IMG/VR virus record: IMGVR_UViG_3300050139_000043
Span: 1-48,604 of that record
Direction: 5' to 3' (one strand)
Length of the DNA stretch: 48,604 bases
Origin: a virus
Positions 29,449 through 48,604 of the stretch are shown here, one piece after another. The first letter of the stretch is position 1, and each line of letters opens with the position of its first letter. The translations under genes and the position numbers were made by a program. Below the pieces are notes generated by a model. The model was not told where the DNA came from, searched no databases, and was given only the letters and a program-made list of their open reading frames with translations.

Positions 29449-30249
29449 TCAGTCTTCAAGCCCCGGAATTATGGGGATCGACACGCAACGGCAATTGATT
29501 TCGCGCCCCGGCCACGTCCACTTGCCTTCAAGGAACGCGCCTTTCGCGACGTCGTAAGTCTTGCCCGAAAAGGCGACATGCTCGGGCCGGGGCACGCGCC
29601 CGCCGGCCGAATGCAGCCATTTCGCTTTCGTGATCCCGAGCGACGTTTGGCGAACGCGCGTCAAGGTGGCGGTCGCCATATTGTTCTGACTTCGCGCGAT
29701 CGTCTCGGCGCGCCGCCGGGCGACGCCGTATTGATCCGTGAGCGCTTTCGTGAGCGTGCCAAGATCGCGGCCCGACTGGACGGATCGCATGACGATCCCC
29801 TGAACTTGCGTCAAATGCTGGCTGGCAATGCTCTTGATCAGGTCGACATTCTCGCCGATCGTCGCTTGCAGGACGTCGTTTTGCGCGCGGGTCATTTGCA
29901 TTTTGACCGTGAACCCATGGGCGCGCAGCATTCGCATAAGCTCCCCGTCGACCCGATCGTTCACGGCTTGCGCGAAATAGTCGGCGAGCTTCGGCGCAAG
30001 CGCGTCGAAACGGGCCTGCCAACGTCGGGCGAATTTCCGCATGAAAGCGCGAAGCTCGCGCGCCGGGCTCGCGTCCATTGCCATGATTTCCGGCGTGTTC
30101 TCGCGATAGGCGGCGACAAGATAACGGTTCAGGCTCTTTTCCATGGCCTGCAATTCCGCGTCCATTCGGTTGCGATACGCGGCGGTGATCGCGGCCGACG
30201 GCCGGACGGCTGCAAGCGGCGTGGCCTTGGGGAGAATTATTTTTGCCAC
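29449..30249 (-). CDS. MuF-like minor head protein
   Basis: A 266-residue protein from GTG 30249. It has a helical portal-binding region (residues 20-150), QYGVARRRAETIARSQNNM, KAKWLHSAGG followed by HVAFSG, and the C-terminal signature GREINCRCVSIPI of the phage Mu gpF head morphogenesis family. It is usually present in few copies inside the head and ejected with DNA. The portal lies upstream, separated by the rightward island 2. Confidence 0.88.
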   Translation of the reverse strand: MAKIILPKATPLAAVRPSAAITAAYRNRMDAELQAMEKSLNRYLVAAYRENTPEIMAMDASPARELRAFMRKFARRWQARFDALAPKLADYFAQAVNDRVDGELMRMLRAHGFTVKMQMTRAQNDVLQATIGENVDLIKSIASQHLTQVQGIVMRSVQSGRDLGTLTKALTDQYGVARRRAETIARSQNNMATATLTRVRQTSLGITKAKWLHSAGGRVPRPEHVAFSGKTYDVAKGAFLEGKWTWPGREINCRCVSIPIIPGLED

Positions 30250-31185: not shown

Positions 31186-31336
31186 ACGCCCGAAGCTCCC
31201 CGCCGACGATCCAATGAGCGAAGCCGCCGAAGAAAAGCGGACCAAGCGTTACCTTGACGAAGCGAAGGCCGGCAAGCCGAGCGCGATCGAACAGGCTATC
31301 GCTCACGTTGCCGGGGCGAAGCCGCCCGTCGACTAG
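31178..31336 (+). CDS. Small charged protein, end of island 2
   Basis: A 52-residue protein from ATG 31178, with AAAGGAC 10 bases upstream. It is highly charged and helical (DPMSEAAEEKRTKRYLDEAK). Its TAG shares CTAG (31333-31336) with the stop codon of the opposing zeta-type gene. Function unknown. Its place beside a zeta-like kinase is suggestive of an antitoxin but there is no sequence support. Confidence 0.6.
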   Translation: MPERPKLPADDPMSEAAEEKRTKRYLDEAKAGKPSAIEQAIAHVAGAKPPVD

Positions 31337-32205
31337 CCGAACAGCTTGTGGCCGTTCTTGGCTACCGGATGGTTTTGCGTGTCGATATAAGTCTCTTGCT
31401 TGGCGGCCCCATTGCCGTCGATCCGGCCGAACCCAAGGTCGGGATATTCGGACTTCAACGTCTCGTAAGTGTTCAACGGCCCGTCGCCGATCGACATGAA
31501 ATACGAAGACGAAATATGTCGTCCCGACGATAGCGCGCGCCCGGCCATGCGCCGGGCCGCTTCGTCTTCCTTCACGTCCACAAGGTCGACCGTGACCGAA
31601 TAGCCCGCCGCTTGCAGCATCTTGATCCGGTTGCGGATCGACCCCGGCGAGCCCCCGACAAGGGGCAGGATCACGTTGTCGCCGCGCTTAAGCATCTGTT
31701 GCAGGACTTCGTTCGCCATGTCCGAACTCTCGCTATGAACCGCGCTCGCGCCCACGCCGCCCGCAAACTCGGGAATGACTTTCTTGGCGTCGTCGCCGTC
31801 GACGATCGCGTAACCTTCCGTCTCGGCGATCCGTTCGGCCGACGTCGACTTGCCGGCGGCCGGCGGCCCGAGCAAGAACCGAGCTTGCTTGTTCTGCTTC
31901 ACGCCGCCCGGCCCCGCGTAGCTTTCCGCCTTGGCGATCAGGTTGGCTTGGGCTTGTCGAATATCCATCGGCGCGCCCGTGTTCGGGTCGTGATATGTGC
32001 GGCCCGCGTAAAATTCCGGGGTCGGGGTGACGTCGTGCGGGATCGTCGGCGTCGTCGCTTGGCTGGCGGCGTCCAGCGGCGACAGCAAGTCCAGAATGTC
32101 GCGCGCCTTGCTGTTCTTGTCGGCGATCAGCGCTTTCAGCTTTTCGACGCCTTCACGGCCGACGTGTTCGACGACGTGCGACGGGATCGGCTTGCCGCCC
32201 CCCGC
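31333..32205 (-). CDS. Zeta-toxin-like kinase domain, out-of-frame extension of the portal
   Basis: A 290-codon open stretch without a suitable start codon, beginning in the +1 frame at the portal's C-terminal linker. It encodes a helical segment (HVGREGVEKLKALIADKNSK) and then a zeta-type P-loop kinase: Walker A FLLGPPAAGKSTSAERIAE, YAIVDGDDAKKVIPEF, HSESSDMANEVL, and an Arg-rich lid MAGRALSSGRHIS. Zeta toxins phosphorylate UDP-N-acetylglucosamine. Removing one base from the run of six G (32198-32203) would fuse it to the portal as a protein of about 830 aa. It may be a real +1 frameshift, a recent mutation or an assembly error. Confidence 0.75.
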   Translation of the reverse strand, partial: AGGGKPIPSHVVEHVGREGVEKLKALIADKNSKARDILDLLSPLDAASQATTPTIPHDVTPTPEFYAGRTYHDPNTGAPMDIRQAQANLIAKAESYAGPGGVKQNKQARFLLGPPAAGKSTSAERIAETEGYAIVDGDDAKKVIPEFAGGVGASAVHSESSDMANEVLQQMLKRGDNVILPLVGGSPGSIRNRIKMLQAAGYSVTVDLVDVKEDEAARRMAGRALSSGRHISSSYFMSIGDGPLNTYETLKSEYPDLGFGRIDGNGAAKQETYIDTQNHPVAKNGHKLFG

Positions 32206-33829
32206 CCGAGCCGAATTGACCGTTCGCGGCGCGCGGGTGCTTGCCTTCCTCAAATTTCGGCGCGGCGTCCTTGCCGGCTGGCGTGTCGGGCTTGGGCTTC
32301 GGCTCGCCGCTCCCGTTCGGGTTGTCGTCGTCGCCGCCTTCCCCGTCTTCAAGCCCCGGCTCGGGCTCGGGTTCCGGGGCGGGGGCGGAAAGGTCGACGC
32401 CGAAATATGGGCTGTCTTCGTCCTGAACGACACGATCGCGGACTTCCTCGTTCGACACGATCCCCGCGCCGACGTAGGCGACGTCCATGTCCGCGTCGCT
32501 CTTGCGGATAAGCGCCTTGTCCTTTTCGTCCATTTCCCAAAGGTCGATAAATTCGAATTGAAGGTCGGGGTCGATCTTTCCGTCAAGGTCAAGCTGGATA
32601 TAGTCGATCATCGCTTGAAGCGGCTCGCGAAGGTGCGCTTCCTGATAAGCCTTGATCGTCGTATAGAACGTCCGGTTTTCCCCGTCGGTCGAAGCGTTCA
32701 GCCCGGCCGGGGTCGACCCGCAGTATTCAGCAATGGGAATGCCGCTCGCGCTGCAAATCTGCTCTTGGCTTTGGGCCAAGAGCTTATCCAGCGTGCCGAG
32801 CGGCGTCGACACGTTCGTCAATTCTTCCTGTTCTTTGTCGATCGCCATTACGCCGCGATTGTCTCGCGAGCGGTTGAACACGTCCAGCCGGCTAAACAGG
32901 TTCGTCCCTTTGCCCCCGGAAAGAACCGCGCCCATGTTCGTTGCAAGAACCATGGTGCTGAACGAATGCAGCAAGTCGCTAACCGACTGGCGCGTCCGAA
33001 GCCAATTGTCGACGTAGGGCTTGATCATTTGCGACAAGGACAGCCCGCCGAACGAATAGGCGGGTTTCAGCATGTCGGGCATTTCGCGGCCAACGATCGT
33101 CATAAGCCGGCTGGCGTCGACTATGTTCGACATGACATACCAAGTCTTCGGCTTGTAAAAGTCGGGGTGCAGCGGCGAGACGCTTTCATATGGCCCCGGA
33201 TAGGACCAAAAGGGTTCGATCGTGCGGAAGCCGACAAGCCCGTCCGGCTTGATCTTGGCGTCCGGCACGAACGGCTTTTGAAGCTCGCGCGCCCCGGCGG
33301 CGGTCGACCCGTCGTCGCCGACGTCGATAAAGATTTGGCCCCGGCCGAAAAAGCCGTCCAATTCCACGACGCGCCGCAGGACCGGCCAAACCTTGAACCG
33401 GCCCATTGCGGTTTCGATCGCCTTCACGCGGTCGTCGTCGCTGTTGAACTTGATCCCCTTGCGGGTCGCGTGGCGCGCGTAAATTTCGGACGATCGGCGA
33501 TACTCGGGCCGTTGCGTAAGCTCGGCAAGATAGGTGTAACCGAGAAAGCCGATCCCTTCGCTGAACATGCCGGCCCCGGCGTATTGATAGAGCGACGCCA
33601 GCCCCATGCCGTCGCCGGACGCGCGGTCCAGCGCCATTGCCATGTCTTCGGCCTTGGGAGCCCACGCGGGAACGGTTGGCACCTTCCACGGCGAGACGGC
33701 TTCACGGCCCCCGTAGCCGGCTTCGGCGACCGTGAGCGGATTGATTTTCATTTCCGCCCGCTCGGCTGGTGCGACGGGGTTTTCGCCCACGCCAAGCCAA
33801 TACCTGATCTTGTCGCGAAATTTCCCCAT
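32153..33829 (-). CDS. Portal protein (DUF1073)
   Basis: 558 residues from ATG 33829. DUF1073 portal features include MFSEGIGFLGYTYLAELTQR, YRRSSEIYARHATRKGIKF, AIDKEQEELTNVSTPLGTLD, and SASGIPIAEYCGSTPAGLNA with the membrane-distal helix that follows. After an acidic Pro/Glu linker comes KHPRAANGQFGSGGG, a linker motif often found before variable C-terminal effector domains of phage head proteins. The frame then ends in an Arg-rich stretch that looks like out-of-frame sequence; the adjacent frame continues into the zeta-type kinase. Confidence 0.87.
   Translation of the reverse strand: MGKFRDKIRYWLGVGENPVAPAERAEMKINPLTVAEAGYGGREAVSPWKVPTVPAWAPKAEDMAMALDRASGDGMGLASLYQYAGAGMFSEGIGFLGYTYLAELTQRPEYRRSSEIYARHATRKGIKFNSDDDRVKAIETAMGRFKVWPVLRRVVELDGFFGRGQIFIDVGDDGSTAAGARELQKPFVPDAKIKPDGLVGFRTIEPFWSYPGPYESVSPLHPDFYKPKTWYVMSNIVDASRLMTIVGREMPDMLKPAYSFGGLSLSQMIKPYVDNWLRTRQSVSDLLHSFSTMVLATNMGAVLSGGKGTNLFSRLDVFNRSRDNRGVMAIDKEQEELTNVSTPLGTLDKLLAQSQEQICSASGIPIAEYCGSTPAGLNASTDGENRTFYTTIKAYQEAHLREPLQAMIDYIQLDLDGKIDPDLQFEFIDLWEMDEKDKALIRKSDADMDVAYVGAGIVSNEEVRDRVVQDEDSPYFGVDLSAPAPEPEPEPGLEDGEGGDDDNPNGSGEPKPKPDTPAGKDAAPKFEEGKHPRAANGQFGSGGGRQADPVARRRTRRP
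32198..32203 (-). other. G6 homopolymer at the portal/zeta frame junction
   Basis: Six G on the minus strand at the point where the portal linker changes frame into the zeta-type kinase. Five G (or four plus a codon) would give one continuous protein. Confidence 0.8.
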
Positions 33830-33838
33830 ATTCAGCCC

Positions 33839-35494
33839 CTACATTTCCGCAAGCAATTCGGCGTCGATTACCATAGCCGCCCGGTGCGCGCGACCAAACA
33901 AAATCATAATGACGTCGGCAAGGTTCGGGGACTTGACGGCTTGCTGCGCTTGCGCTTGTCCCGGCGGGGCCTTGTCGACGACGATATGCCCGGTCGTCGC
34001 CTTAACATAGGTCGGCTGCGAAAGCTCCATTATGACCTTGCCGAGCAAGCCGAACGGCGCGCCTTCGTTGGGGATATTCAGCGCTTCGCTGTCCAGCGAT
34101 ATCAATTCGCTCGGGTCGAACTTGTCGCCAAATTCCACGGCGCGGAATGTCTTGTAGAACCGGCGGCGCAACGCCCACCATTCTTGCGCCTTGCGGTTGC
34201 GGAAAAAGTCTTCGTTCTTCCGCCCGGCGACGTCTTCGGCGAGCGGCGCGAGAACGCCAGCCGAGCCCCGGAACGCTTGAACGTCCAGTTGCTTTTGATG
34301 CTTTTCGTTGCGGCGATCATTGATCACGCGGCTATTGCCCCGCACGTCCGCCCCGAGCCCGTCCGCGTCGTAAAGGAAGGCGTCGATATCCCATTCGTCG
34401 GCGAGGTCGAACGCCTTTTCCGTGCTGGCGAAAATGTCTGACCCCTTGCCGGACCATTCGGCGATCCGGTCGACGACGACGCCATGGGCGCGGCCGAAAG
34501 CGTTCTTGTCCCGGCCTTCGTCCGCCACGTCCATTGCGCCACGGGGGCGGCCCGTCGCCTTGAAGCCGAGCCGCTTATGCGCGTCGACGGCCGCCTGAAC
34601 CCAATTGCTCGGGATCAAGACGCCCGTGGTCGACGCCGCGTAATTTATGTCGATTTCCTGCGCGACCGTTACCGGGTCCAATTCCTCGCATTGCTTCCGA
34701 TACCAAGCGTCGTCCTTGCGGGGATCGTCGCGCCAATGGCACGTAAAGACGCTGATCTTTCCCCCGTGGCGTTTCTCGGCGAAGGGGTTGTTCAAGCCGT
34801 TGGCGCTGGAAATATCAATTCGGCAATTGGTCGTCGCCGACAAGCTGGCTTCGATCAGTTGCGGCCGTTCAACGTAGGCGGCTTCGTCGACGAAATAGAT
34901 CGCTTGCCGATCGCCGCGCCCGATATTGTCGCCGGCTTCGCCCGTGATCGTCGACCCGGTTTGCGGGAACGACAAGCGAAGGTGCGCGCTGCAAGTGCGC
35001 GGGTTCCAGCCACCCGTGAAGTCGGGGGGCAGGTTCAGGACGAATTGCCGGGCTTTCCAGAACAGCGATTTCGGGTGGCCGATCTTGTCGACGTATTCTT
35101 CCTTGCGGCTCCCGAAGCCGATCGAAATATCATCGCGGAAAAGGCACAACGTCGACGCCAGCGACACGGCAAGCCACGACAGGCCGAAGTCGCGACTTTT
35201 CTCGGCGAGCCCCGGCTTGCGCTCGCGCCACTGGCCCATGACCCATTGGCACCATTCGCGTTGCTTGGGGAAAAGGATGAATGGAATTTTGACGGGAAGG
35301 TCAAGCTCGGCGTTGCGCGGGTCGACCGTGACGCCCCAATCGTTGATAAAATCCCAAGGCGCGTCCCGGTAATGCAGGAACAGCCGATCGCGCAAATCGA
35401 CGTCTTGCCTGATCAGGCGAAGCCGGGCCGATCGGGCTTGAATGATCGGGCCATAGTCGGGCTTGCGGAAATCGAACGGAACCCCCGTCGCCAT
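33839..35494 (-). CDS. terL: Terminase large subunit
   Basis: A 551-residue packaging motor. The ATPase part has a T4-like adenine region (PKQREWCQWVM), Walker A as EKSRDFGLSW, and Walker B AIYFVDEAAYV. The nuclease part includes RPRGAMDVADEGRDKNAFG and FLYDADGLGADVRGNSRV with the metal-binding Asp residues. Together with the small subunit at 36122-36877 it cuts and translocates DNA through the portal encoded next. Confidence 0.92.
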   Translation of the reverse strand: MATGVPFDFRKPDYGPIIQARSARLRLIRQDVDLRDRLFLHYRDAPWDFINDWGVTVDPRNAELDLPVKIPFILFPKQREWCQWVMGQWRERKPGLAEKSRDFGLSWLAVSLASTLCLFRDDISIGFGSRKEEYVDKIGHPKSLFWKARQFVLNLPPDFTGGWNPRTCSAHLRLSFPQTGSTITGEAGDNIGRGDRQAIYFVDEAAYVERPQLIEASLSATTNCRIDISSANGLNNPFAEKRHGGKISVFTCHWRDDPRKDDAWYRKQCEELDPVTVAQEIDINYAASTTGVLIPSNWVQAAVDAHKRLGFKATGRPRGAMDVADEGRDKNAFGRAHGVVVDRIAEWSGKGSDIFASTEKAFDLADEWDIDAFLYDADGLGADVRGNSRVINDRRNEKHQKQLDVQAFRGSAGVLAPLAEDVAGRKNEDFFRNRKAQEWWALRRRFYKTFRAVEFGDKFDPSELISLDSEALNIPNEGAPFGLLGKVIMELSQPTYVKATTGHIVVDKAPPGQAQAQQAVKSPNLADVIMILFGRAHRAAMVIDAELLAEM

Positions 35495-39723: not shown

Positions 39724-39992
39724 GACGCCAGCGTCCCGCAAGCGACGTTGCACGCGCCCCCGGTCGACATGATCCAGATATGCGCGGCGGTCCCCTTCAC
39801 GGCGTCGCCGGGGGATAGCACGTTGCCTTCGCCCGCCGTGACGGGCTCGGCGTCGGCATAGACGACGAAAATGGAACCCGGCCCCTTGTTCTGAACGAAG
39901 CTCGGGACGCCGCCCATGGGCGCGCGGTCGACGACGATATCATGCCACGCGCTAGAAGCGGGCCAGTCTGCGAGCGTGATCGTATCGGCCAT
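39720..39992 (-). CDS. Small virion-type protein next to PrimPol
   Basis: A 90-residue protein from ATG 39992 (TAATG overlap with PrimPol). It is beta-rich and contains PSFVQNKGPGSIFVVYADAE, similar in style to small head or tail decoration proteins. It is probably expressed with 39109-39723. Function unknown. Confidence 0.6.
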   Translation of the reverse strand: MADTITLADWPASSAWHDIVVDRAPMGGVPSFVQNKGPGSIFVVYADAEPVTAGEGNVLSPGDAVKGTAAHIWIMSTGGACNVACGTLAS

Positions 39993-42478
39993 TATTGCCC
40001 CCCGAAACGCGAAGCTGCCTGATCGTTCGTAACGACGTGCTGCGCGGAAGTGTAGGCTTTACCAATCGCGCCGGGGTTGGTCAATTGCAGCGACAAATGA
40101 CCGTCCTTGACGAACAGTCGCGGCTTGCCGCCGTCGGGGGTCACGGTGCCGGCCGTGCGACCGTCGGACAAGCCGGGGTGCAAGCGATAGCCGAGCGCTT
40201 CGACCAAGGCCCGCCGCTTGATCCGGGGAACCGGGGCCTTGATCCGATCCAAGAGCCGATCCAGCATGATCGACGAAAGCCAGCCGCCCGCGAAGCCGGG
40301 TTCGCCCGCTTCGATCGCTTCCATTATCTCTTGTTCTGCGCGGCCAAGCGACAGGCTGCGCGCCGTGGCGCTGGACGACGTTTCGGGAGCGCGGACGCAC
40401 TGTTGCGCCGGGTCAAGCTCGGCGGTCAAGGCGTAAGCGTGAAGCCATTCGTTGACGATTGACGCGCCATACCAAAGCCCGAGCCCTTCATACGCCCCGC
40501 GCCCGTAAAACCAGTCGTAAAGATCGGGGAAATAGTTGCCGGTCATGCCGTCGCGCATAAGGTCCAAGATCGACTGTTGCGCGGTGTAGAGAATGCAATA
40601 ACGCCGGCTGTCAATGGTCACGGGGATAGCGTCGGCGTGGTTCGTGAACATGATAATATTTAGGCGGTTGTCGCCGGTTTCTTGGTTCAGGCCCTTGCCT
40701 TCAAGGGGAATGCGGTCGTCGGTAACGGTCGTCTTGAACGTCTCTAGAAAGTCGCGCCGATTGTTGACGTAAATTTCTTCGATCCCCAAGAATAGCTTGC
40801 CTTCAACCCATGCGTTGAATTGGTTTCCCGTCTTCGCCATGGCGTCGGGGTTGACAAGGTGCGAGTAGCGTTGCCCGATGCAGAATTGCATTAGGCGGTT
40901 GATCAGGCTCTTGCCGTTGCCTTCCATGCCTTGAATGACCGGGCACCATTGGAATTTGCGCCCCGGATTGCGAACCATGCTGGCGAGGTAGTGATAGAGG
41001 ATTTCCCGATCGCGCGCGAGCGGCAACAGCTTTTCCATATGCCGCAGCCATGGGCCGGCGTCGCCCGCGCGGCGAAGCGTCTGGATCGGGAGATAGGTAT
41101 TCAACAGCGCGAGCCCTTCCTCTAGGACGATCGCGCCCGACGGATATTCGGGCCGGAAGCATGGCTTATGCGCGCGGGGAGCTTCAAGCACGCGGGAGCG
41201 CGTGAAGGCGTCGAACGGGCTGTCTGTTACCTTGTCGTTCTGCGCGTCCAGCGGGAAAAGGTGGCCGCCGTAAACGACGTCCATTCGCGCCTTGTCCAGC
41301 ATAACCCCGGTGGCCGGAACCCAAACCTTGTTATCCCGCACGACATAGACGCAACCGGCGAAATAGCTGGCCTGCCCGTCGGCTGGAATGAAGTCGCGCC
41401 CGGCGGCCCGCATCACCATGCTGTTCGAAGCCGTGACCAAGCCGCCAACGATCGCCGCGCCGTCCGGCGTCGGGTGTGCGATAACCGTCGTCACGGGCTG
41501 GACCGTCGCCGGCTGGCCCGCAAGAGCGCCGGGGGCGGGCACGGGATCGCGTTTCTTGCAAATGTTCGTCACGACGGACGCGGCGCGCATGATCGTGGTT
41601 TCCAGCCAATCGGGCCGGTCTTCCCATTTCTGGCGAGCAAGCCCCGACTGGAACATAAGGTCGCGGGTGCGTTCGTGGTTCTTGCCGGTCCAGTAGGCGA
41701 GGTGCGATGCGAGCGCGCCGTCGGCTTGGCTGGCGTCATAGCCGCCTTTGTCGCTAGGCCACTTGCGCGCGAGCTTGTCGGGGTTGGCGTCCCAAAGGTC
41801 CGCAAAGGTCACGTTGCCTTCGCCGAACACGTTGGCGGCGTTCTTTTGACCGGACGCCAGCGCGGCGCGCAGCAAGTCGGCGTCGTCTTCGGGGCCGCCG
41901 TAGCCTTCGCACGGCTCGGCGGACCAGCCGGCAATTTCGCCGTGCGGATTGGGCGGAAAGTAGCGTTCGGCGAACGCGGTCAAGGCGGCCGTATGGTCAA
42001 GGCTGGCGTCGCCTTGCAGCGCCGTCCCCGTGAGCGCGACAAAGCGTTCGTGCGTGTAAAGCTCAATATGCAGGCCGATATTCTTGCAGCTATGCGGCGG
42101 CGCTTTGCCCCGGCCGATAACATGCAAGCCGGTCATGGACTGGCTGACTTCCACGGCCGCGCCGGGGAACATCGCAAGGATTTCGTGCGCGAGCGGCGAC
42201 CATGCCTTGCCGGCTGGCGTGTCGATCAGCGCGCCGTCGACGTCGACGAAGAAATAGCCGTCCGCTTCGTTGAACACGAACCCGACGGCGCGACCGGTGG
42301 CGACCGCTTCGGCGAACGAATATTGATGCTCGGGAAGGTTGCTATTACACCATAGCCCCGTGCGGACGTCCACGGGCCGCTTGATCGTCTTGCCGGGGCG
42401 ATCGGGATCGGGATACGTCTCATAATTTACGAACCGCTTAAGCGCGGCAAGGGGTGCAAGTGCCGTCCCCAAATCCAT
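39992..42478 (-). CDS. PrimPol-SF3 helicase (DUF5906/NrS-1-like)
   Basis: An 828-residue replication protein. Residues 1-200 look like a primase-polymerase domain: YFFVDVDGALIDTPAGKAW with catalytic Asp residues, EVSQSMTGLHVIGRG, then HIELYTHERFVALTG. Residues 480-640 form an SF3-type helicase: Walker A IQGMEGNGKSLINRL, Walker B GKLFLGIEEI, and sensor NIIMFTNHADAIPV. The C terminus resembles a winged helix (AEQEIMEAIEAGE region). It probably primes and unwinds for the family A polymerase. Confidence 0.87.
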   Translation of the reverse strand: MDLGTALAPLAALKRFVNYETYPDPDRPGKTIKRPVDVRTGLWCNSNLPEHQYSFAEAVATGRAVGFVFNEADGYFFVDVDGALIDTPAGKAWSPLAHEILAMFPGAAVEVSQSMTGLHVIGRGKAPPHSCKNIGLHIELYTHERFVALTGTALQGDASLDHTAALTAFAERYFPPNPHGEIAGWSAEPCEGYGGPEDDADLLRAALASGQKNAANVFGEGNVTFADLWDANPDKLARKWPSDKGGYDASQADGALASHLAYWTGKNHERTRDLMFQSGLARQKWEDRPDWLETTIMRAASVVTNICKKRDPVPAPGALAGQPATVQPVTTVIAHPTPDGAAIVGGLVTASNSMVMRAAGRDFIPADGQASYFAGCVYVVRDNKVWVPATGVMLDKARMDVVYGGHLFPLDAQNDKVTDSPFDAFTRSRVLEAPRAHKPCFRPEYPSGAIVLEEGLALLNTYLPIQTLRRAGDAGPWLRHMEKLLPLARDREILYHYLASMVRNPGRKFQWCPVIQGMEGNGKSLINRLMQFCIGQRYSHLVNPDAMAKTGNQFNAWVEGKLFLGIEEIYVNNRRDFLETFKTTVTDDRIPLEGKGLNQETGDNRLNIIMFTNHADAIPVTIDSRRYCILYTAQQSILDLMRDGMTGNYFPDLYDWFYGRGAYEGLGLWYGASIVNEWLHAYALTAELDPAQQCVRAPETSSSATARSLSLGRAEQEIMEAIEAGEPGFAGGWLSSIMLDRLLDRIKAPVPRIKRRALVEALGYRLHPGLSDGRTAGTVTPDGGKPRLFVKDGHLSLQLTNPGAIGKAYTSAQHVVTNDQAASRFGGQ

Positions 42479-45857: not shown

Positions 45858-47498
45858 TTAATTTGGCCCCCGCGCGATTATTTTTTCGGCGAGCGCTCGC
45901 GCGTCCCGCGTCCCGAGCCCTTGGGCCGTGATCACGTCCACGCCGAACACAAGGAAGAACTTGCGTTGCATGGCGCTATCGTTCAGCCCGGCGGCGAGAC
46001 AATGGCCGCCAAACTGGCCCATGGCCGCGCGAAGCTCGGCGATAGCGTCTTGGTTCTCCCGGCGGCGGTTGACGTTGCCGGCGACGGCGACATGCGGGAG
46101 CCCCGTCTTGATAAGCTCTTGCCGATAGAAGTCTTCGTGCCGGTCGACGTTATCCATGGGCTCGCGCAGCCGGGCCAGCGTCTCGGCGTCAAGCTCGGAA
46201 ACGTCGCCGTCGACCGCCTTCGGGGACGATCGGGTCGCCGGCTCGGGATAGTGGCCGCAGTAGGGGCATTCCTTGTAAAACCGTTCGTATGGTTCGAAGC
46301 ACGCCACGCAAACCCGGTAAGGGATCGCGTCGCCAGCCGCAGACTTTGCGTTCGCCGCCCGGTCCAGCGTCCAAAGGCGCGGCTTGTCCGGCGGCCCTTG
46401 ATGCCGCAGCACGTTCGCAACGTGGTCGATTATGATCGCCTTGCCCTTGCCCGGCATGGTCCGCAGCGTCCGCCCGAATTGCTGCATATAGAGCGCGAGC
46501 GATTGCGTCGGCCGGGCCATGCTGGCGCATTCGATCGCCGGCAAGTCGAAGCCTTCGGAAATGATATCGACCGCGACGATTTGCAGAATTTCGCGCCGTT
46601 CGAAGCGCTTCAAGATCGACCGCCGCAGATAGTCGTCTGTCTTGCCCGTGAGCGTCTCGGCGGGAATGCCGGCCGCCCGGTAAGCCATGGTCATTTGGCC
46701 GGCGGTTTCAACGTCTGTGCTGAACGTGATCCCGAGCTTGCCGAGCGCATAAGTCTGATAGCCGCGCACAACGTCGCCGATGATATGCGAGCGCTTCGCC
46801 GCTTCCCGTAGCGCCTTGGTCGACCAATCCCCCGACGCGGCGACGTCTTCCAGCATCTCCAAATCGCACGGGGGACAGAAAATCCGATAGTCGGACAGAT
46901 AGCCTTGGTCGATAAGCCAACGCATAGGCGGCCCCTGAACCATGACGTCCGCCACGCCGTTTGCGTGACGCCCGAGCCCCTTGCCGTCGGCCCGCTTTGG
47001 CGTGGCCGTCGGGAGCAAGCCCCGGCATAGCGCGTGCGTGAACCGGGAAATCGCCGTATGCCATTTGTTGTCGACGACAAGGTGATGCCCTTCGTCGACA
47101 ACCCAAAGCGTGACTTGTTCGGCGAGCCCGGCGGGAAGCTCGGCTTTGACAAGCGTGTCCACGGACGCCACGAAACAACGCGCGCCGGGGTCGTAATAGC
47201 TGCGGCCCAATTCTTCGATATGGGCGCGGACGATCGCGCGCCGGGTGCTTTCGGCCGCAATGATATTGTGCCGGACGCCATACTTCGCCAGCGTCAAGGA
47301 CAGTTGCCCGACAAGCTCTTGCCGGTGCGCGATGATCGCCGACGCGCCCCCGTGGTTCCGAATGATATCGGACAGCGTGACCGTCTTGCCGCCGCCCGTG
47401 TCCAGCCGCATAAGGACGTTTCGCGCGCCTTGGTTCCATGACTGATAAACTTCGTCGCGCAGCGTGGCTTGGAACGGTCGCAGAATAGGAGTGGTCAC
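45858..47498 (-). CDS. SF2 DEAD/DEAH-type helicase
   Basis: A 546-residue protein from GTG 47498 (GTGA overlap). Motifs: RPFQATLRDEVYQSW (Q-like), I LDTGGGKTV, Ia IIAHRQELVGQ, II VVDEGHH, III LLPTATPKRADG, IV/V region IISEGFDLPAI, VI YMQQFGRTLR. A zinc ribbon (CVACF and CPYCGHY) follows the helicase core, as in related phage helicases. It is the first large leftward early gene and probably acts in replication initiation or recombination. Confidence 0.92.
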   Translation of the reverse strand: MTTPILRPFQATLRDEVYQSWNQGARNVLMRLDTGGGKTVTLSDIIRNHGGASAIIAHRQELVGQLSLTLAKYGVRHNIIAAESTRRAIVRAHIEELGRSYYDPGARCFVASVDTLVKAELPAGLAEQVTLWVVDEGHHLVVDNKWHTAISRFTHALCRGLLPTATPKRADGKGLGRHANGVADVMVQGPPMRWLIDQGYLSDYRIFCPPCDLEMLEDVAASGDWSTKALREAAKRSHIIGDVVRGYQTYALGKLGITFSTDVETAGQMTMAYRAAGIPAETLTGKTDDYLRRSILKRFERREILQIVAVDIISEGFDLPAIECASMARPTQSLALYMQQFGRTLRTMPGKGKAIIIDHVANVLRHQGPPDKPRLWTLDRAANAKSAAGDAIPYRVCVACFEPYERFYKECPYCGHYPEPATRSSPKAVDGDVSELDAETLARLREPMDNVDRHEDFYRQELIKTGLPHVAVAGNVNRRRENQDAIAELRAAMGQFGGHCLAAGLNDSAMQRKFFLVFGVDVITAQGLGTRDARALAEKIIARGPN

Positions 47499-47818
47499 GC
47501 TTGCGCCGCCTCTTTCAGCATGGCCGAAACTTCGGCGTATTCGGGCGGAAGGCTTCGACAGCCCCAAGGCAAGTCCAGCAACGCGCAAAACTGGATCGCG
47601 TATTTCAATTCGAACAGCATGATCCGCGCGCAAAGGACGGCCGGGTCGTGCCGGTATTTTTCGAACAGACTTGTAACCTTGGTCCCGGTTTTTATGAACG
47701 TCACGTCGAAGCCTAGGTGCGTGTCGTGGATCGCCATAAGGCTATCCGCCGTCGGCTTGAAGCCGTCGACTTCGATCGCCCCGGCTTCCGTGGCGATCCA
47801 GAATTTTGCCTTTTGCAT
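47495..47818 (-). CDS. Unknown protein, first leftward early gene
   Basis: A 107-residue protein from ATG 47818. It has a mixed alpha/beta fold with AIHDTHLGFDVTFIKTGTKV and a C-terminal helical part with Cys residues (LLDLPWGCRSLPPEYAEVS). No family is recognised. It shares the intergenic control region with the divergent rightward operon. Confidence 0.65.
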   Translation of the reverse strand: MQKAKFWIATEAGAIEVDGFKPTADSLMAIHDTHLGFDVTFIKTGTKVTSLFEKYRHDPAVLCARIMLFELKYAIQFCALLDLPWGCRSLPPEYAEVSAMLKEAAQA

Positions 47819-47907: not shown

Positions 47908-48604
47908 ATGTTGCATATCGAAATTTCTGGCGACACGTCGCCGCGCGAATTGAAGGCCGTCAAGGCGCTGATCGCGTGCTTGCTCGGCGAGACGTCGACC
48001 GCCGCCGTGGCCGCTTCCGCCCCGGCCCCCGCGACGATCCCCGAGACGCCGGCCGCGCCCGAGACGCCGGCCGTTCCCGAAGTGTCGACCATTCCCGCCC
48101 CGCCCCTTTCCGCCGTTCCGCCGCCCCCGGTGGCCGGAACCGACGCCGTGCCGGGGGAAGTCCCCCCGCCGCCCCCGGCCGGCGTCGACGTCGACAAGGA
48201 CGGGTTGCCTTGGGATGGCCGCATTCACGCTTCGACCAAGACGAAGACGAAGGGCGACCAATGGACGAAAAAGCGGCAAGTCGACCCGGCTCTTGTGGCG
48301 CAAGTCGAAGCCGAGCTTCGCGCGGTCATGGCGGCCCCGGCCGTCTCGGCGGGGTCCGTCCCGCCGCCGCCGACTGGCGAGCCCGGCCCGGTTCAGACGG
48401 ACCCCGCCGCCGCGTTTGGGGGCGCGCCGTCAACCCCCGCCGACGCGCCCCCGGCCGTCACGGAAACCGCTTCCCCGACTCCCATGGCGGAATTTGCAAG
48501 GATTATGCGGGTCGTGACCGGAAAGCAAGCGGCCGGCACGCTGGCAACCGAAACGGTCGCCGGGATCGCGCAAGCGCTCGGGATTACCGGGGTCAAGGAC
48601 TTGG
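47908..48604 (+). CDS. N-terminal part of junction-spanning Pro/Ala-rich protein
   Basis: Starts at ATG 47908 with GGGAGCC upstream and runs off the window end; it continues through the terminal overlap to the stop at 207 (about 247 aa). N-terminal domain (MLHIEISGDTSPRELKAVKA, residues 1-30), a long Pro/Ala linker, then DGLPWDGRIHASTKTKTKGD and KKRQVDPALVAQVEAELR, a motif met in many phage early proteins. A second Pro-rich linker leads to the helical C-terminal domain. Function unknown; it heads the replication operon. Confidence 0.75.
   Translation, partial: MLHIEISGDTSPRELKAVKALIACLLGETSTAAVAASAPAPATIPETPAAPETPAVPEVSTIPAPPLSAVPPPPVAGTDAVPGEVPPPPPAGVDVDKDGLPWDGRIHASTKTKTKGDQWTKKRQVDPALVAQVEAELRAVMAAPAVSAGSVPPPPTGEPGPVQTDPAAAFGGAPSTPADAPPAVTETASPTPMAEFARIMRVVTGKQAAGTLATETVAGIAQALGITGVKDL
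48445..48604. repeat. Terminal repeat, right copy
   Basis: Right copy of the 160-base end overlap described at 1-160. All three mismatches change the encoded residue (Ala/Pro, Ser/Thr, Ala/Thr). This is compatible with population variation or a chimeric contig end in a proline-rich repetitive stretch. Confidence 0.9.

Follow-up and report, generated by a model that had tools for sequence, protein, structure and literature searches.

We found that a portal gene in the virus record IMGVR_UViG_3300050139_000043 of IMG/VR (48,604 bases, analysed at full length and called here the window) is continued by a kinase of the zeta-toxin fold, which lies in a different reading frame in this record. All eight distinct relatives found with a portal of the same family (Phage_portal_3, PF06381) and a kinase of the same type have both parts in one open frame of 848–993 codons, and among these fusions the frame is broken in the window alone. 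The portal–kinase fusion is thus real as a gene architecture, as the initial annotation had proposed in holding that the two belong together. It is quite probable that the gene specifies a portal with a C-terminal cargo enzyme, held in the capsid and entering the host with the DNA, and that its frame in this record was broken by an error or a recent mutation.

The gene comprises the following parts:

33829..32153, minus strand: portal open reading frame (ORF), 558 amino acids (PF06381, E 2.3e-75; phrog_146 portal protein, E 1.8e-102)
32483..33532, minus strand: portal domain PF06381, residues 100–449 (Pfam)
32213..32239, minus strand: junction motif HPRAANGQF, followed by GSGGG; the strict pattern occurs nowhere else in the six frames of the window
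32198..32203, minus strand: run of six G, the point where the portal and kinase frames part (sequence inspection)
32153..32197, minus strand: final 14 residues of the portal ORF, out of frame, with the stop
31333..32202, minus strand: zeta-fold kinase frame, 289 codons and a stop, with no start that has a clear Shine-Dalgarno sequence
31444..31893, minus strand: Zeta_toxin domain PF06414, kinase-frame residues 104–253 (Pfam)
31846..31869, minus strand: Walker A motif GPPAAGKS, residues 112–119
31792..31794, minus strand: Asp137, aligned to the catalytic Asp67 of zeta and invariant in 14 of 14 aligned kinases
31657..31659, minus strand: Val182, at the place of zeta Thr118, a contact of UDP-N-acetylglucosamine (UDP-GlcNAc, UNAG); Val in nine of nine aligned window-type kinases

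The portal part scores 254 bits against PF06381 (curated cut-off 33.8) and the kinase frame 63.4 bits against PF06414 (curated cut-off 22.3; E 2.6e-17), the latter a match far beyond chance; the NCBIfam portal model TIGR01555 gave 82.3 bits, below its cut-off of 196.25. Between the two lies an acidic linker rich in Gly that contains the motif HPR..NGQFGSGGG, and the portal ORF terminates in KHPRAANGQFGSGGG followed by 14 further residues. The initial annotation was right that the portal frame ends just past this linker, that a kinase with the GPPAAGKS motif and the lid arginines follows in another frame, and that the frames part at the G run by a single base. Clustered differences from the relatives are also seen in the portal at about 32675–32740, where the window reads IPIAEYCGSTPAGLNASTDGEN and the relatives IPLVILLGVTPSGLNASSDGEI or close to it.

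The same annotation erred in stating that the kinase frame has no start codon: up to residue 141, it contains TTG at residue 39, ATG at 79, GTG at 101 and TTG at 110. Both the ATG and the GTG are upstream of the Walker A motif, and the GTG follows a weak stretch rich in G, so that a separate kinase gene with its own start was considered. We rejected it, as inspection by eye revealed no clear Shine-Dalgarno sequence at any of these starts; moreover, Met is absent at the place of the ATG in one relative (L007), and the domain resides inside the portal ORF in every one of the eight. Such a separate gene is the least probable account of the locus.

The fused relatives are L002 (contig 3300015202_000023), a single ORF of 912 amino acids with a kinase 73% identical to that of the window, L006 (852 amino acids), L007 (857; L008 and L009 are counted with it as one), L010 (848), L011 (993), L012 (956), L029 (open frame of 874) and L106 (open frame of 852). 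Kinase ORFs were read at 78 of the best 80 of 140 kinase loci (L004 and L010 were examined separately), and none of the 78 has a PF06381 portal in a separate ORF on the same strand. In the portal tree, the window and six of the fused relatives form a clade of seven with a Shimodaira–Hasegawa-like approximate likelihood ratio test (SH-aLRT) support of 93, below the 95 mark, and L029 and L012 fall outside it. The initial annotation had let its proposal hinge on whether related fused portals exist, and they do. Two pattern scans of genome contigs gave 346 and 115 matching stretches, none of them a relative; the exact junction DNA had no match in viral contigs, a search from which records very near the window were possibly excluded; and a phages collection held 13 distant records with the kinase, all below 60% identity.

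The C-terminus of the PF06381 portal family is a swappable cargo slot that accommodates zeta kinases, ADP-ribosyltransferases, a nuclease, a pyrophosphatase, NUDIX domains and acetyltransferases. We surveyed the best 80 of at least 315 related portal loci: 28 have C-terminal tails of more than 100 residues and 52 have tails of at most 100, the latter falling to 46 if three that end with the contig and three with a stop in the matched stretch are subtracted. Among the 23 distinct long tails given to Pfam, the cargo domains are Zeta_toxin (L029, L036, L042, L047, L053 and L062, with L021 and L022 being the L006 and L007 listed above), ADP-ribosyltransferase (L043, L050, L063, L075 and L080), GNAT (L047, L069 and L089), NUDIX (L089 and L098), PBECR3 (L025), InPase (L054), histidine phosphatase (L082) and LPD3 (L094), and one polypeptide (L062:1806-5534) displays a topoisomerase IB core together with the zeta domain; five of the 23 (L027, L048, L052, L056 and L086) gave no Pfam family. 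A motif of the HPRAANGQF type precedes the cargo in many of these portals. In its loose form, HPR...G.F, it is present in 22 of the 28 long tails (the strict form in 18) and in none of the 52 short ones, a count that is descriptive because the pattern was written after the tails had been viewed.

In a quick tree of 76 portals with 13 cargo states, at least 23 changes of cargo are needed, against a possible minimum of 12 and a mean of 31.0 for shuffled labels; hence, the cargo is passed on by descent and also frequently swapped or lost. This tree leaves out L072, L076 and L090 (interrupted by a stop within the match), L023, L071 and L092 (portal close to the end of the contig) and the near copies L026, L041, L046, L049 and L081, with L007–L009 again counted as one. 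As to where the cargo would reside, the portal of phage E217 (gp19, of the same family) has been modelled for residues 97–528 of 765, and its helical barrel extends into the head (PMC10329688), and residues 529–765 of the Pa193 homologue are reported to be without density (PMC11042391). By Pfam, an InPase domain occupies residues 635–753 of E217 gp19 (L101:9124-11421), past the part that was built; the HPR motif was not found in the last 273 residues of this protein. Given that the E217 barrel points into the head, cargo at the portal C-terminus would lie inside the capsid.

The kinase of the window is predicted with high confidence to adopt the zeta fold (predicted local distance difference test, pLDDT, 93.9; predicted template modelling score, pTM, 0.90). 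Its best matches among solved structures are the zeta toxins 1gvn (Z 16.2; root-mean-square deviation 3.0 over 199 residues) and 3q8x (Z 16.0), followed by PezT (15.1), AvrRxo1 (14.7) and then polynucleotide kinase (14.0), and Foldseek likewise places zeta on top, with TM-scores of about 0.55. Counterparts of zeta Lys46 and Asp67 (Lys118 and Asp137 in the window) are present in all 14 aligned kinases, in which the three lid arginines are also invariant. The window kinase accordingly has in common with the zeta toxins (1gvn, 3q8x and PezT 2p5t; PMC3062530) the fold, the Walker A lysine, the catalytic aspartate and the lid arginines, and differs from them in belonging to a portal gene and in having most of the UNAG contacts replaced. 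By sequence alignment, the contacts Thr118, Arg120, Glu100 and Thr128, which are listed in section 9 of PMC3062530, correspond to Val182, Gly184, Asn164 and Arg192; among nine window-type kinases, the zeta residue is retained in none, none, two and none, respectively, and Thr118 is replaced by Val in all nine. A PezT with the corresponding Thr-to-Val change is described in the same source as a nontoxic variant. As most of the contacts are replaced, the UDP-sugar kinase activity that the initial annotation had envisaged is doubtful. Other zeta types on portals (L036, L042, L047, L053 and L062) retain a Thr at the Thr118 place, and these five may therefore differ from the window type in substrate.

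AvrRxo1 resembles the window kinase in combining the zeta fold with replacement of most UNAG contacts, and is described as a type III effector whose phosphorylation substrate is NAD (PMC5491322); for the window kinase, NAD would be no more than a candidate. The three plus-strand ORFs adjoining the kinase matched no Pfam family and no antitoxin-like family, although a diverged epsilon-like antitoxin could escape such a search. PADLOC assigned no family to the kinase or to the L006 fusion, the NCBIfam hits of the kinase were limited to models for adenylate and UMP-CMP kinases plus a single oxidoreductase model, all far below their cut-offs, and a kinase profile of four rows retrieved three weak adenylate kinases from the PDB sequences.

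This type of kinase extends beyond the PF06381 portals. Eight of the 78 kinase ORFs are on such portals (six if L103–L105 are one), 55 are on a second lineage, two are on MuF proteins (L123 and L124), three share the N-terminal part of L130 and ten are unsorted. The second-lineage ORFs (L109–L176) are mostly 1000–1250 residues long, carry the kinase near the end and form 34 clusters at 95% identity; four of five representatives are linked by PHROGs to the portal protein phrog_21, and phrog_10691 was also matched. A 2787-residue protein of the polyvalent type (L013:933-9296) combines a ddrB-ParB domain with a window-type kinase.

The frame break itself is ordinary and is most likely the product of faulty sequencing or assembly, or else of a mutation that happened very recently. 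The kinase differs from that of L002 at 62, 49 and 154 first, second and third codon positions, respectively, has one unique residue at otherwise invariant columns (2–15 in the six other rows), and has an end branch of 0.207; the corresponding values for the portal and the terminase of the window are 0.367 and 0.138. Judged by these substitutions, it is under purifying selection, with no decay over its 289 codons, and an untranslated relic was rejected on this ground. Consequently, the real virus either has the frame open or lost it only a short time ago. We lean slightly towards an error in the G run, the real virus having one open fusion gene: besides the eight of eight relatives in frame and the undiminished selection on the kinase, L006 has the same bases around the site with a shorter G run and an open frame. 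Conversely, the record looks otherwise clean. In a comparison of ORFs of at least 80 codons matched at E 1e-6, the window divides between two frames only one of 43 genes matched from the relative G001 and one of 38 from the relative G003, namely this gene in both cases, and the best piece covers at least 80% in 34 and 28 of the matched genes, respectively. An error-ridden record was accordingly rejected. That the break is a genuine mutation of recent date, by which a cargo portal became a bare one, is a sizeable possibility, though short of an even chance. Bare portals are common, as seen in the 52 short-tailed members of the survey, and the truncated ORF retains the entire portal domain; the lack of any trace of decay in the kinase frame speaks against it.

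A programmed ribosomal shift, which the initial annotation had raised, is a third account; it would take place at GGGGGGC, and a minority of portals would thereby acquire the kinase. The shift site of phage Mu is a G run of a similar kind. A slip inside the G run would land in the kinase frame, and −2 shifting in phage Mu, which this would resemble, is reported in PMC5009743. Programmed shifts are expected to have conserved sites of at least seven bases, according to PMC3711429; here, neither shift nor site is conserved, as none of the eight relatives needs one and GGGGGGC is absent from the junction in all seven relatives inspected (L029 is not among them). Further, the RNA surrounding the site and downstream of it has no more stable a fold than shuffled sequences (z 0.01), and GGGGGGC has 10 occurrences in the window where 18.2 would be expected. 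Conservation, RNA folding and motif count all led us to reject a programmed shift, which we regard as very improbable.

Fusions of effectors to portals and of zeta kinases to MuF proteins have already been published, and a portal–zeta fusion was not found in the open-licence PubMed Central literature searched. Iyer et al. 2017 (PMC5512222) report portals that bear PBECR, 2H and InPase domains, and place zeta-like kinases in conjugative elements and MuF fusions. ART, 2H and NUDIX domains on portals, with a proposal of packaging and injection, are described in PMC9503650. The window type resembles these polyvalent and portal–effector fusions in having an effector on a portal, where it would be packaged and injected; it differs in that the passages of PMC5512222 on the zeta-like kinase give it for conjugative elements and MuF, not for portals. 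Dissimilar activities in one polypeptide encoded with virion genes, as in polyvalent proteins, are seen in the relatives; the window shows them only if its two frames are joined. E217 gp19 similarly has an enzyme-like domain past the part built, although its cargo is InPase rather than a kinase and it lacks the HPR motif. The MuF polymorphic toxins (PMC5576092) are likewise head proteins with swappable C-terminal enzymes, but the carrier in the window is the portal, with PF06381 rather than MuF as the N-terminal part; its MuF protein is a separate gene of 266 amino acids with no other Pfam domain. A fold match of 1134 residues in BFVD bears the name 'Anti-CBASS protein Acb1' and may itself be a portal–zeta fusion. 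That name is presumably one applied to PF06381 proteins.

Judged from their sequences, the surrounding genes constitute a myovirus-like late region, which also includes a small terminase, a cement protein, a major capsid protein and a tail sheath:

33839..35494, minus strand: large terminase, the gene before the portal (Terminase_3C below cut-off; assigned by position and collinearity with relatives)
29449..30249, minus strand: separate MuF or SPP1 gp7-like head protein, 266 amino acids
26783..28426, minus strand: head maturation protease (DUF2213; phrog_2229, E 5.8e-125), a conjectural candidate for cutting the linker

Elsewhere in the window, a helicase (45858–47633, minus strand) shows a likeness to RadD under the model cut-off and also to PbeA and type IV restriction models, and a minus-strand gene at 39992–42478 has DUF5906 and an NrS-1 polymerase-like domain and is probably involved in replication. 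One gene of 253 amino acids (L018:1286-2044) matches both ends of the window, 48187–48603 and 49–204, so both termini of the contig apparently fall within a single gene, as would be the case for a genome that is circular or permuted. No repeats of note were found within either end, and a search for tRNAs in the window found none.

We propose that twelve portal subunits would hold the kinase inside the filled capsid, beyond the helical barrel, where the E217 C-terminus would also lie. It might be freed by a cut in the linker, conceivably by the head maturation protease or by another cut, and would then enter the host alongside the phage DNA and phosphorylate a small molecule early in infection, with a substrate that is probably not UDP-GlcNAc. 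With the frame broken, the portal would still function but would carry no cargo, a condition natural to many of its relatives. Several points weigh against this picture. Delivery needs a cut, as portal subunits stay in the virion, and this is the weakest step; the cargo is dispensable for the portal's own work, as many surveyed portals have none. None of the five second-lineage representatives matches a Pfam portal family, their portal assignment coming from PHROGs only. As to the break, the window has 19 six-base G or C runs and no other compared gene is broken, so the G run is no general error site, and error and mutation are indistinguishable from the record sequence alone.

A broader proposal, which we put forward tentatively and consider rather unlikely, is that the inner end of the portal serves generally as a swappable cargo dock, often marked by an HPR...G(K/Q)F motif with Gly after it, and that head maturation sets the enzymes free to travel with the DNA into the host. 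On this view, the window-type kinase would be a new and widespread type of small-molecule kinase, borne by PF06381 portals and by the second lineage; UDP-GlcNAc would not be its substrate, and NAD or a nucleotide that signals in host defence might be.

A similar portal C-terminus, unbuilt in the cryo-EM model, is present in E217, a laboratory phage in which packaging and fate of such cargo are testable. Were the cargo to be delivered, a virion would bring up to twelve enzymes, in keeping with the portal symmetry, and the phage would have a host-directed kinase at work in the first minutes of infection.

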